Source of the DNA: Candidatus Saccharimonadota bacterium
GTDB lineage: Bacteria > Patescibacteriota > Saccharimonadia > Saccharimonadales > Saccharimonadaceae
Assembly (NCBI GenBank): GCA_015655045.1
Contig: JAATFU010000003.1
Coordinates: 1-64,000 of the forward strand
Reading direction: 5' to 3'
DNA length: 64,000 nucleotides
Positions within the stretch are counted from its first letter, which is position 1. Each line of letters opens with the position of its first letter. Position numbers and translations under genes: made by a program. The notes under the pieces were generated by a model. It searched no databases. It saw only the letters and a program-made list of their open reading frames with translations, and was not told the DNA's origin. Below, piece by piece: positions 12,720-24,635 of this stretch.

Positions 12720-12767
12720 CCAAAACGAAAATATCCCAACTCACTGGTTGGGATATTTTCGTTTTGG
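12720..12767 (-). terminator. tmRNA terminator, perfect 21-bp hairpin
   Basis: Arms 12720-12740 and 12747-12767 are perfectly complementary over 21 bp around a 6-nt loop (TCACTG). The minus-strand arm begins with the CCA end of tmRNA itself. On the minus strand the descending arm contains TTTTCGTTTT, so this is likely the ssrA terminator or 3' processing hairpin. Confidence 0.75.
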
Positions 12768-13173
12768 TGGAGCTGCGGGGAATCGCACCCCGGTCCGAAA
12801 GGTAACAAATTATTTGTCTACAAGTTTAGTCTACCTAGCTGCTTAATGACATTCAGAACTAAAGGGAAACGAAAATATCCTTCATGTCACGCAATAAAGT
12901 GTCCTGATTTGTTGTTGCTGCCCCACAAATCAGTAAGTAACATCGTATATAACACCCTCCTGTCGTATGTTACCTAGACAAAAAGATGGCATTAGGGATT
13001 AACCTAAGCTGTTACTGAAGAAACCTGAAGCTTGAATGGACTAAAGTCCACTTGGGCAAAGATATTCTTAAGTGATGCAAGTTTGTTTGCAATTAAATTA
13101 TGTAGGTTACGCCTACGGTCGACTTGCAAAATAATTTATTAAAATCCTTCCGTCGAAAGCTAAAGTCAGCCCC
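12765..13173 (-). ncRNA. ssrA: Transfer-messenger RNA (tmRNA)
   Basis: The 5' end GGGGCTGACTTTAGC and the 3' end GCAGCTCCACCA form the tRNA-like acceptor stem (GGGGCUG with CAGCUCC, one G-U), and CCA is encoded. A T-arm with CGGGG/CCCCG stem precedes it. Length is 409 nt. tmRNA rescues stalled ribosomes together with SmpB. The likely resume codon is GCA in TTAATT-GCA-AAC, and the frame then runs 28 codons to TAG (starts ANKLASLKN, ends LQVSSVTA), though the tag frame is not certain. The hairpin TGGAC-TTTA-GTCCA fits helix P5. Transcription is minus, with a 21-bp hairpin at the 3' end. Confidence 0.93.
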
Positions 13174-14845: not shown

Positions 14846-14846
14846 A

Positions 14847-15180
14847 GTGACAGTTCATCGGTAAGCCGGGTTCTGTCGTGGGTGATCATCTATCTAGTCA
14901 AGTAGTTGCCTACTTGATCAAGCGGGTATCGATCTGCGGACGGGCCGCCCTTAATGCAAATCTCCTTGCAGCTGACAGGGTTTACCTTCACGCCACGTCA
15001 CCGTGGAATGCTGTGAGCTCTTACCTCACTCGTTTCATCTTTGCCTTTTTCAAGGTAGTTTCGTTTCTGTGGCACTTTCCCTAGGGTCGCCCCCGGTCGC
15101 CGTTAGCGACTGTCATTGCCCTACACTGCCCGGACTTTCCTCTTATGTAAACATAAGCGATCACCTGACAAACTGTCAGG
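14847..15180 (-). ncRNA. rnpB: RNase P RNA, bacterial type A
   Basis: On the minus strand the conserved 5' block GAGGAAAGTCCGGGC and 3' block AACCCGGCTTACCGATGAACTG are present. Terminal segments CTGACAGTT and AACTGTCAG pair as helix P1. The central GGTGACGTGGCGTGAAGGTAAACCC region and GAAACTACC fit the catalytic core. It is the ribozyme that matures tRNA 5' ends. A TGCTATACT extended -10 (complement of 15185-15190) lies 5-6 nt upstream of the 5' end, inside the space before the Nudix-RNase H gene end. Confidence 0.93.
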
Positions 15181-19839: not shown

Positions 19840-21651
19840 CTAAATCTTCTTGAGATAATCAGAGAGGTCAGTAAGTAAGATTTTCTCTTCGCCAGTTTGG
19901 GTTCGAACACTCACCTCTCGCTTTTCTTTATCCTGTTGGCCAATAATTAACTGAACAGGGACCTTCCAGGTAGTTGCTTCACGAATCTTCTTACCGAGCG
20001 ATTCATTACGATCATCAGTTGTATAGCGTAGTTCGTTGTATTTAACAGGTGTATCGAGGACAGTCTGATCAAGAGTGGCTGTTACCTCTTTTACATAATC
20101 AAGTACTGTATCGTTGATAGTCAGAATGCGAACTTGTTCTGGGGCAGCCCAGAGAGGAAACCAACCAGCTGTATGTTCAATAAAGACACTGAGAAAACGC
20201 TCAATAGAACCAAGTAATGCACAGTGAATCATCACCGGTGTTTGAGCATTACCTTCGGCGTCTGTATATACGAGCCCGAAACGACCAGGCTGCACAAAGT
20301 CGAGCTGTACGGTCGCCACTTGATGTTCACGACCAATAGCATCCGTGGCCATAAAATCAATCTTAGGACCATAGAAGGCAGCCTCCCCATCTTGTTCGAA
20401 ATAGTTTAACTCATTTGCAATAACAGCCGCTTTTAGTTGCGCTTGAGCCGACTCCCAAAGTGATAGCTCACCCAAGTAGCCATCGCCTCCATCACGATAT
20501 GATAATCGAACACGCAAAGGCATATTAATTGACGCATAGAGCTTACGAGCAGCCGCGAGTAGATTGTTAATTTCATCTTCAATTTGATCTGGTCGACAAA
20601 ATACGTGACTATCATCCTGGGTTAATGACCGAACACGATTCAACCCACCCAATTCGCCCGTCTTCTCATCGCGATAATCCGTCGTTGTCTCAAGATAACG
20701 TACTGGCATATCACGATAACTACGTGGTCTCGATGCAAAAATTTGAGTATGGTGCGGACAGTTCATTGGTTTTAAAGCAAAGCTATCACTTGTCTCTTGG
20801 CTTGTGACTAGAAATAGTTCCTCGCCAAACTTCGCCCAATGTCCGGAAGCTTCATATAGCTCCTTTTTCGTAATATGTGGCGTCCAAACCTTTTGAAAAC
20901 CGTAACTTTGTCGAAGTTGATTCGAATATTGACTAACAATGTCACGAAGCACCGTTCCTCGAGGAGTAAATAGTGGTAAACCAGCACCAACCAAAGGAGA
21001 CAGAGTATACAGATCGAGTTCTTTGCCTAATTTGCGGTGGTCACGCGTCTTTGCTTGTTCGAGACGCTCCAGATACTGATCAAGCTCGTTTTGAGTGGCA
21101 AAAGCAACCCCATACAGGCGCTGCATCTGAGGATTTGTCTCTTTACCACGCCAATATGCGCCAGCTACTCGTAGAAGCTTAAAAGCACCTACATCTTTAG
21201 TGTTTGCGACATGGGGACCACGACATAGATCAACAAAATTGCCATTCTTATAAAATGAAACTGTCTCAACGGCTGACCCACCGCTTGTCTTCAGTCCAAG
21301 TTCATCGGCATCAAGGTCCTTAGCCACAGTTGTACCAGCACGTTTCAAATCATTCAATAATTCTTCTTTATATGGTTGTTTGTTGGCGCGCGCCCATTCG
21401 ATCGCTTCATCAATCGGCATTTCGAAACGTTCAAAATTATCCCCATAATCAATTAATTTATGCATCTCTTTTTCGATTTTTGGAAAGTTCGCCTCTGATA
21501 TCTTTAGTTCGCCAAGATCAATATCGTAATAGAAGCCATTATCCACCACGGGGCCAACGCCAAACTTAGCATCGGGCCATAATCGTTGCACCGCTGCAGC
21601 CGTAATGTGCGCCAAGCTGTGTCGCATTGCATGTAATTGGTCGTCGTTCAT
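19840..21651 (-). CDS. thrS: Threonyl-tRNA synthetase without TGS domain
   Basis: This class II synthetase charges tRNA-Thr. The 603-residue protein begins directly in the editing (N2) domain with HSLAH (residues 11-15), the first part of the HxxxH editing site. It lacks the N-terminal TGS domain of about 60 residues found in E. coli ThrRS. Catalytic motifs include MNCPHHTQIF (zinc cysteine), LGGLNRVRSLTQDDSHVFC and the anticodon-binding domain at the end. The start has AGGAGT upstream. Expression appears controlled by a T-box leader. It heads a likely thrS-atl-miaA operon. Confidence 0.96.
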   Translation of the reverse strand: MNDDQLHAMRHSLAHITAAAVQRLWPDAKFGVGPVVDNGFYYDIDLGELKISEANFPKIEKEMHKLIDYGDNFERFEMPIDEAIEWARANKQPYKEELLNDLKRAGTTVAKDLDADELGLKTSGGSAVETVSFYKNGNFVDLCRGPHVANTKDVGAFKLLRVAGAYWRGKETNPQMQRLYGVAFATQNELDQYLERLEQAKTRDHRKLGKELDLYTLSPLVGAGLPLFTPRGTVLRDIVSQYSNQLRQSYGFQKVWTPHITKKELYEASGHWAKFGEELFLVTSQETSDSFALKPMNCPHHTQIFASRPRSYRDMPVRYLETTTDYRDEKTGELGGLNRVRSLTQDDSHVFCRPDQIEDEINNLLAAARKLYASINMPLRVRLSYRDGGDGYLGELSLWESAQAQLKAAVIANELNYFEQDGEAAFYGPKIDFMATDAIGREHQVATVQLDFVQPGRFGLVYTDAEGNAQTPVMIHCALLGSIERFLSVFIEHTAGWFPLWAAPEQVRILTINDTVLDYVKEVTATLDQTVLDTPVKYNELRYTTDDRNESLGKKIREATTWKVPVQLIIGQQDKEKREVSVRTQTGEEKILLTDLSDYLKKI

Positions 21652-21884
21652 GGTTCATACTCCTTTTTTGATAAATAAAAAACATGCGATAGTTACATTT
21701 AAGCCTTGTCTTTAAAGGTTAAATCTATATATCGCATGTCTCGGACCCAGTAGTATTCTTATGCAATACTATAGGGTGGTTCCACCGGACTTCCTATAAA
21801 TTGATATAGGCACTTGTAAGAGAATATGTCATGGTTCATCTTATCCATGGAACTCAACAACTGGTTAGATTGCATCATCGTTCA
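21652..21884 (-). promoter_or_regulatory. T-box riboswitch leader of thrS
   Basis: On the minus strand an antiterminator of T-box architecture can be drawn. Helix A1 is GUCCGG with CCGAGAC (one bulged A). It is followed by the 7-nt bulge UGGAACC (complement of 21778-21784), then helix A2 ACCC..UAGUAUU with AAUACUA..GGGU. The 3' A1 strand abuts and shares bases with the 5' strand of a long terminator. The bulge UGGA can pair with UCCA, the 3' end of the tRNA-Thr at 24560-24635. A shorter upstream stem carries ACA (Thr codon) in an internal loop, a possible specifier. A TGGTATGAT extended -10 lies at the leader start. Confidence 0.8.
21677..21739 (-). terminator. Conditional terminator of the thrS T-box
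   Basis: ACATGCGAT pairs with ATCGCATGT, with inner pairings ATAG/CTAT, ATTTAA/TTAAAT and CCTT/AAGG, followed by TTTTTT on the minus strand. It lies between the antiterminator and the thrS ribosome binding site. Confidence 0.85.
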
Positions 21885-21943
21885 GGTATTATCATACCAT
21901 ATTCTTGCGGTAGCACCTCTACTTTGGTATCCTTATATAGCTT

Positions 21944-24559: not shown

Positions 24560-24635
24560 TGGAGCCGCTGTCCGGATTTGAACCGGAGACCTACGCTTTA
24601 CGAAAGCGCCGCTCTACCAACTGAGCTACAGCGGC
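24560..24635 (-). tRNA. tRNA-Thr (CGT), discriminator U73
   Basis: On the minus strand GCCGCTG...CAGCGGC form the acceptor stem, and the anticodon loop TTCGTAA gives anticodon CGT. The discriminator base is U, followed by encoded CCA, so the 3' end is UCCA. This is exactly complementary to the UGGA of the thrS T-box bulge at 21778-21784. Confidence 0.95.

Follow-up and report, generated by a model that had tools for sequence, protein, structure and literature searches.

The thrS and glyQS leaders of Firmicutes (class I, transcriptional) carry a long Stem I with an IDTM and a specifier in a side bulge. Such a long Stem I with its IDTM is generally required in transcriptional T-boxes, where tRNA binding has to precede the arrival of the polymerase at the terminator, while ultrashort Stem I elements occur mostly in translational T-boxes (PMC7583486). 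The ultrashort form has been described in actinobacterial ileS (Sherwood 2015, as cited in PMC7583486), and ileS T-box structures are available for Nocardia farcinica and Mycobacterium tuberculosis. The thrS leader analyzed here shares with the actinobacterial ileS T-boxes an apical-loop specifier in a short Stem I without IDTM, a purine after the specifier, the IIA/B pseudoknot and an antiterminator with a UGGN bulge. However, the actinobacterial T-boxes are translational and their Stem II S-turn helps to bind the tRNA, whereas this leader has a transcription terminator, and its stretch from Stem I to the IIA/B pseudoknot contains no Stem II stem. With the Firmicute leaders it shares the mutual exclusion of antiterminator and terminator, UGGN-NCCA pairing, an aminoacyl-tRNA synthetase target and the RRRxG-stem III-AA motif, but its Stem I is only about 34 nt long and the specifier lies in the terminal loop.

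The T-box database paper mentions only major phyla. The preliminary description of this DNA was unaware of a documented T-box in CPR bacteria, and we likewise found none reported for CPR, Saccharibacteria or Parcubacteria in the open-access papers searched; subscription papers, TBDB entries and Rfam region lists were not covered. Given that scope, priority is not proven. Apparently new are the presence of a T-box in this lineage and the coupling of transcription control to an ultrashort Stem I.

The thrS locus and the anatomy of its leader

The window is the whole stretch of DNA that was analyzed (64,000 nucleotides), and all positions refer to it. The thrS leader occupies 21652-21885 on the minus strand. 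That a T-box leader precedes thrS in a Saccharibacteria-like genome, as had been claimed, held up: the gene is a thrS equivalog in NCBIfam, and the genome type follows from the closest named thrS relatives, which are mostly Candidatus Saccharibacteria MAGs. The features of the locus are:

19840-21651, minus strand: thrS, threonyl-tRNA synthetase, 603 aa (NCBIfam TIGR00418, thrS equivalog, 602 bits)
21660-21664, minus strand: thrS ribosome-binding site AGGAG, from the sequence, outside both alternative hairpins
21677-21742, minus strand: intrinsic terminator, from the fold; GAGAC (21738-21742), at its 5' base, doubles as the A1 3' strand, and the U-tract lies at 21677-21682
21738-21790, minus strand: antiterminator, from fold and covariation; A1 GUCCGG (21785-21790) with CCGAGAC (21738-21744), A2 ACCC (21774-21777) with GGGU (21745-21748)
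21778-21784, minus strand: T-box bulge UGGAACC, from the alignment and the tRNA genes; UGGA (21781-21784) is complementary to UCCA of tRNA-Thr
21791-21815, minus strand: AAGUG, Stem III (CCUAUA/UAUAGG, 21793-21810) and AA, forming the RRRxG-stem III-AA motif
21817-21843, minus strand: Stem IIA hairpin (UAAGA...UCUUA), from the alignment; helix 75.8% paired overall
21830-21849, minus strand: pseudoknot of CAU (21847-21849) with AUG (21830-21832), part of Stem IIA/B; 98.4% paired
21850-21883, minus strand: ultrashort Stem I, from alignment and covariation; GAAC/GUUC, internal loop GAUGAU/UGA, GCAA/UUGU and the 9-nt terminal loop UCUAACCAG
21863-21865, minus strand: specifier ACC (Thr), followed by A, in the loop UCUAACCAG; a Thr codon in 68 of 68 orthologues
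21891-21899, minus strand: extended -10 promoter element TGGTATGAT, inferred from the sequence, not mapped
24560-24635, minus strand: tRNA-Thr(CGU), U73 with encoded CCA; suits the bulge, not the specifier ACC

Reading of the upstream DNA in sister genomes revealed TGN-TATNAT likewise 5' of Stem I, and from the position of TGGTATGAT transcription would be expected to start at about the base of Stem I. A simple promoter/terminator scan made no calls at the thrS promoter and terminator; it admits only loops of 3-8 and so cannot report this terminator. Elsewhere in the window, 12765-13173 and 14846-15176 are ordinary tmRNA and class A RNase P RNA genes.

Within the order, thrS was located in 338 of 393 genomes; named public genomes were examined as well, and the DNA upstream was read. 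The resulting alignment holds 61 distinct thrS leaders, and the structure scored on it comprised the two Stem I helices, the IIA/B pseudoknot, Stem IIA, A1 and A2. Over these leaders 90.3% of the cells were paired; shuffles gave 78.0 +/- 0.5 and slid partners 27-43%. In addition, 282 cells were double-changed, against 88 +/- 10.5 in shuffles and no more than 69 after sliding. Shuffles ignore relatedness, so no probability is attached to them, but the slid control keeps it. Lack of covariation in A1 and A2 had been named beforehand as a result that would refute the T-box; the pairs of both helices covary in the 61 leaders. Furthermore, a covariance model trained on the remaining 60 leaders, with the window left out, recovered 21736-21885 at 71.9 bits (rough E 3e-16) as its single match in the 64 kb window. 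Judged by this comparison, the thrS leader is a real T-box and strongly conserved.

Codon identity was ignored in picking Stem I; the criteria were helix pairing, the GA positions on its flanks and a loop of 7-11 nt. It is 34 nt long, has its specifier in the apical loop and no IDTM, and so meets the test for the ultrashort class. In the 61 sequences 97.5% of the cells in its lower helix and 99.6% in its upper helix are paired, with double changes at every pair. The specifier triplet is a Thr codon in all 68 Saccharimonadales thrS leaders (ACC 58, ACU 8, ACG 2). The earlier candidate specifier, ACA, had to be given up: the covarying Stem I places ACC in its terminal loop instead. The pseudoknot (alignment columns 38-40 with 60-62) occurs as CGU/ACG, CGU/GCG and CGC/GCG, and as CAU/AUG in the window, where the register of Stem IIA is one off the consensus. 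Stem III is present in 28 of the 61 leaders, and each of these 28 keeps the RRRxG...AA motif of T-box discriminators (defined in PMC7583486, Table 1). No Stem II with an S-turn was found in the thrS leader alignment between Stem I and the IIA/B pseudoknot.

A match to the Rfam family RF00230 had also been anticipated, but a search of the window returned none, even at E<=10. On the window's own genome RF00230 matched nothing at thrS and matched ileS at 34.9 bits. The thrS leaders of two sister genomes scored 26-37 bits, and ileS leaders of this genome and others about 26-40 bits, all below the gathering score of 93. No match exceeded this score in any of 60 related genomes. These orthologous thrS and ileS leaders nevertheless align, at 26-40 bits, along the entire model. 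The gathering score, a test that the window does not meet, is a database cut-off and not a biological definition. The thrS leader is too divergent for RF00230, and this divergence explains why RF00230 scans would miss such leaders.

The alternative hairpins and the match to tRNA-Thr

Folded alone, 21738-21790 adopts exactly the antiterminator layout of the preliminary description (GUCCGG/CCG-A-GAC and ACCC/GGGU around the UGGAACC bulge) at -17.0 kcal/mol, and 4 of 200 shuffles were as good. The 7-nt UGGNACC bulge between A1 and A2 that is expected of a T-box is thus present. Beside the bulge, only 19 of the 61 leaders have the canonical G-U pair in A2, and the window has A-U. The strong alternative terminator with a common edge, likewise foreseen, was recovered at 21677-21742 with -24.2 kcal/mol (z -7.9, a value that none of 200 shuffles equalled) and is followed by U6. 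The stem at its base has 13 pairs, takes in GAGAC of A1 and extends into the six-U run.

In all 61 folded leaders 2-5 nt of the 3' strand of A1 also belong to the base of the terminator, meeting the T-box test that the two hairpins be mutually exclusive, and the terminator is the more stable hairpin in 56 of them. In distant thrS leaders (L215, L219, L228, L236) the overlap reaches 10-11 nt, 11 at most. However, in the window the hairpins have in common only AC/GU together with weak A-U/G-U pairs with the U-tract, and because so few pairs are common the exclusion is thin on paper. The notion that the terminator of the window is nearly compatible with the antiterminator (2-nt overlap) was rejected, as comparison of orthologues and the fold show GAGAC to be common to both. 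The minimum-energy fold of the whole leader lacked the antiterminator; the input included promoter sequence and the terminator was favoured.

The tRNA-Thr genes of the genome (GGU, CGU, UGU) all have U73 with encoded CCA, complementary to UGGA. Of the other CCA-bearing tRNAs that were recovered here, only those for Lys and Cys have U73. The variable base of UGGN therefore complements base 73 of the cognate tRNA (A against U73), which is a further T-box test met. The preliminary description had paired the bulge with the tRNA-Thr gene at 24560-24635; the complement to U73 stands, but this gene is CGU and does not fit ACC. Taken together, UGGA and ACC identify tRNA-Thr(GGU) as the cognate, and its gene lies elsewhere in the genome. 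Similarly, the glyS leader of another genome (G516) has the specifier GGA and the bulge UGGA, and the tRNA-Gly(UCC) of G516 has U73, although base 73 of tRNA-Gly in the window's genome is A. The specifier changes with the gene and the bulge tracks base 73, so both contact points go with the tRNA.

tRNA-Ile(GAU) was not found among the tRNA genes recovered from the window's genome (G000) or from G051, the ileS leader of which (L013) has the bulge UGGA. In G000 this tRNA gene was perhaps lost with the rRNA operon, or is interrupted. The 16S gene of the rRNA operon is cut off at position 1 of the window.

Related leaders in the order and the phylum

Of 393 Saccharimonadales genomes, 150 gave a match to the thrS model, in 84 of 156 genera; a sample of 380 genomes drawn across the phylum gave 57, and related leaders occur in many of its families. 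Both counts are likely lower bounds because stricter filters were used. The best 25 order-wide matches all lie 70-105 nt upstream of an independently located thrS. Matched named records were Saccharibacteria and, weakly, Uhrbacteria (L183, E 0.007), and the haloarchaeal and actinobacterial thrS loci used as controls gave no match at E <= 0.1. In the order-wide sample 5 of 15 genomes of the same genus had no match; in G013 thrS lies at a contig edge. Some loci, for example L045, L078, L081 and L083, are true leader absences without an R2 match, and in several leader-free sister loci thrS follows the promoter almost directly. Since the leader is absent from some sister genomes, the switch is not essential. 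At leader-free thrS loci (L045, L078, L081, L083, L084, L086, L090, L095, L096) the start codon lies about 8-15 nt after the -10 element; this spacing suggests a leaderless mRNA where the thrS T-box is absent.

A gene-blind hairpin scan of the phylum matches gave Thr in 25 of 30 thrS leaders and Gly in 4 of 5 glyS leaders, several of the exceptions being off-register by a base or two. In ileS leaders, that of this genome included, the loop reads CUAUCAA or nearly so and displays AUC; with regard to a Stem II S-turn, AGUA/GAA-like elements are present in the ileS leaders. The glyS leaders from other families of the phylum (L226, L232, L239, L240, L244) have GGA or GGC in the Stem I loop. The specifier codon in Stem I thus fits the amino acid of the regulated gene, as a T-box should (Thr for thrS, AUC for ileS, GGC/GGA for glyS).

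The order also holds ileS T-boxes at L001 (G000:C4:12209-12355, minus), L007, L008, L011, L012, L014 and L015. In most of them the 5' arm of the terminator sits in Stem III, upstream of the antiterminator, and for that reason the terminator encloses the antiterminator and the 3' strand is not common to both. Here the tRNA would likely act through competition with Stem III, though how it would block the enclosing terminator is unclear. An enclosing terminator was also seen before thrS in other Patescibacteria (L172, L174, L182, L230, L231), e.g., CCGCC/GGCGG around the antiterminator. Very small thrS T-boxes, in which Stem I through the end of A1 takes up 88-114 nt and the loop is CUACCAA or similar, were observed at L219, L228, L234 and L235, and in L219, L228 and L234 A1 is wholly common to the terminator. 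The smallest (L219, L228) measure 88 nt over this span, which leaves no room for Stem II, IIA/B or III. A T-box before valS in a sister genome (L005, G007:C7:6307-6514, minus) gave the best RF00230 score seen, 48.9 bits; it has a longer Stem I, with GUC in an apparent side bulge.

Proposed regulation of thrS and its implications

We are confident in reading the thrS leader as a transcription-attenuating T-box riboswitch of reduced build, although tRNA binding, sensing of charging, switch direction and promoter use are inferred. Anatomy, covariation, the fit of specifier and bulge to tRNA-Thr(GGU), the hairpin overlap and the gene-matched specifiers elsewhere are demonstrated; that tRNA is bound and its charging sensed is deduced from knowledge of the family, without biochemical evidence. 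The polymerase would start at about 21885 and make Stem I first, the terminal loop of which would display ACC to the GGU anticodon of tRNA-Thr. If the tRNA is uncharged, its free UCCA end would pair with UGGA of the bulge and hold the antiterminator, and thrS would be transcribed. The end of threonyl-tRNA could not dock; GAGAC of A1 would then join the terminator hairpin, and transcription would terminate about 25 nt before the thrS start codon. Such a classical switch would be off by default and on only when uncharged tRNA holds the antiterminator.

Translational T-boxes of actinobacteria have just such an ultrashort Stem I (PMC7583486), and a leader of that kind, in which the tRNA gates access to the Shine-Dalgarno sequence as in actinobacterial ileS and not termination, has to be considered. 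We think it unlikely here, since A1 is followed by a strong hairpin and U-tract that overlap it in 61 folded orthologues, and AGGAG (21660-21664) lies outside both hairpins. With the terminator overlapping A1 and the Shine-Dalgarno sequence free, the translational control expected of the ultrashort class is not met, a judgement made from sequence alone. A Stem I hairpin with a threonine-related loop triplet before thrS could also recall E. coli thrS, where ThrRS binds an operator in its own leader that mimics tRNA-Thr. However, the loop holds the codon (ACC) and not the anticodon (GGU), the triplet becomes AUC before ileS and GGC/GGA before glyS, and the UGGN bulge follows base 73, so that a synthetase-binding operator is hardly credible for this locus. 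We give just as little weight to a leader-peptide attenuator or a tRNA-independent terminator merely resembling a T-box: a strong terminator is indeed present, but what is conserved and covaries is the set of T-box elements, and only about 7 nt separate the -10 element from Stem I, too few to encode a peptide ahead of it.

If the transcriptional T-box reading is extended to the wider group, we lean towards the view that CPR bacteria have widespread transcriptional T-boxes without the elbow-binding IDTM and the Stem II S-turn, in which the tRNA is sensed through little beyond its anticodon and NCCA end. If such leaders work, the kinetic argument for a long Stem I needs revision, and a leader of about 90-200 nt would offer a convenient minimal system for tRNA-mRNA recognition. 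For the organisms themselves, the finding suggests that even with very reduced genomes they adjust thrS, ileS and glyS to the state of tRNA aminoacylation.
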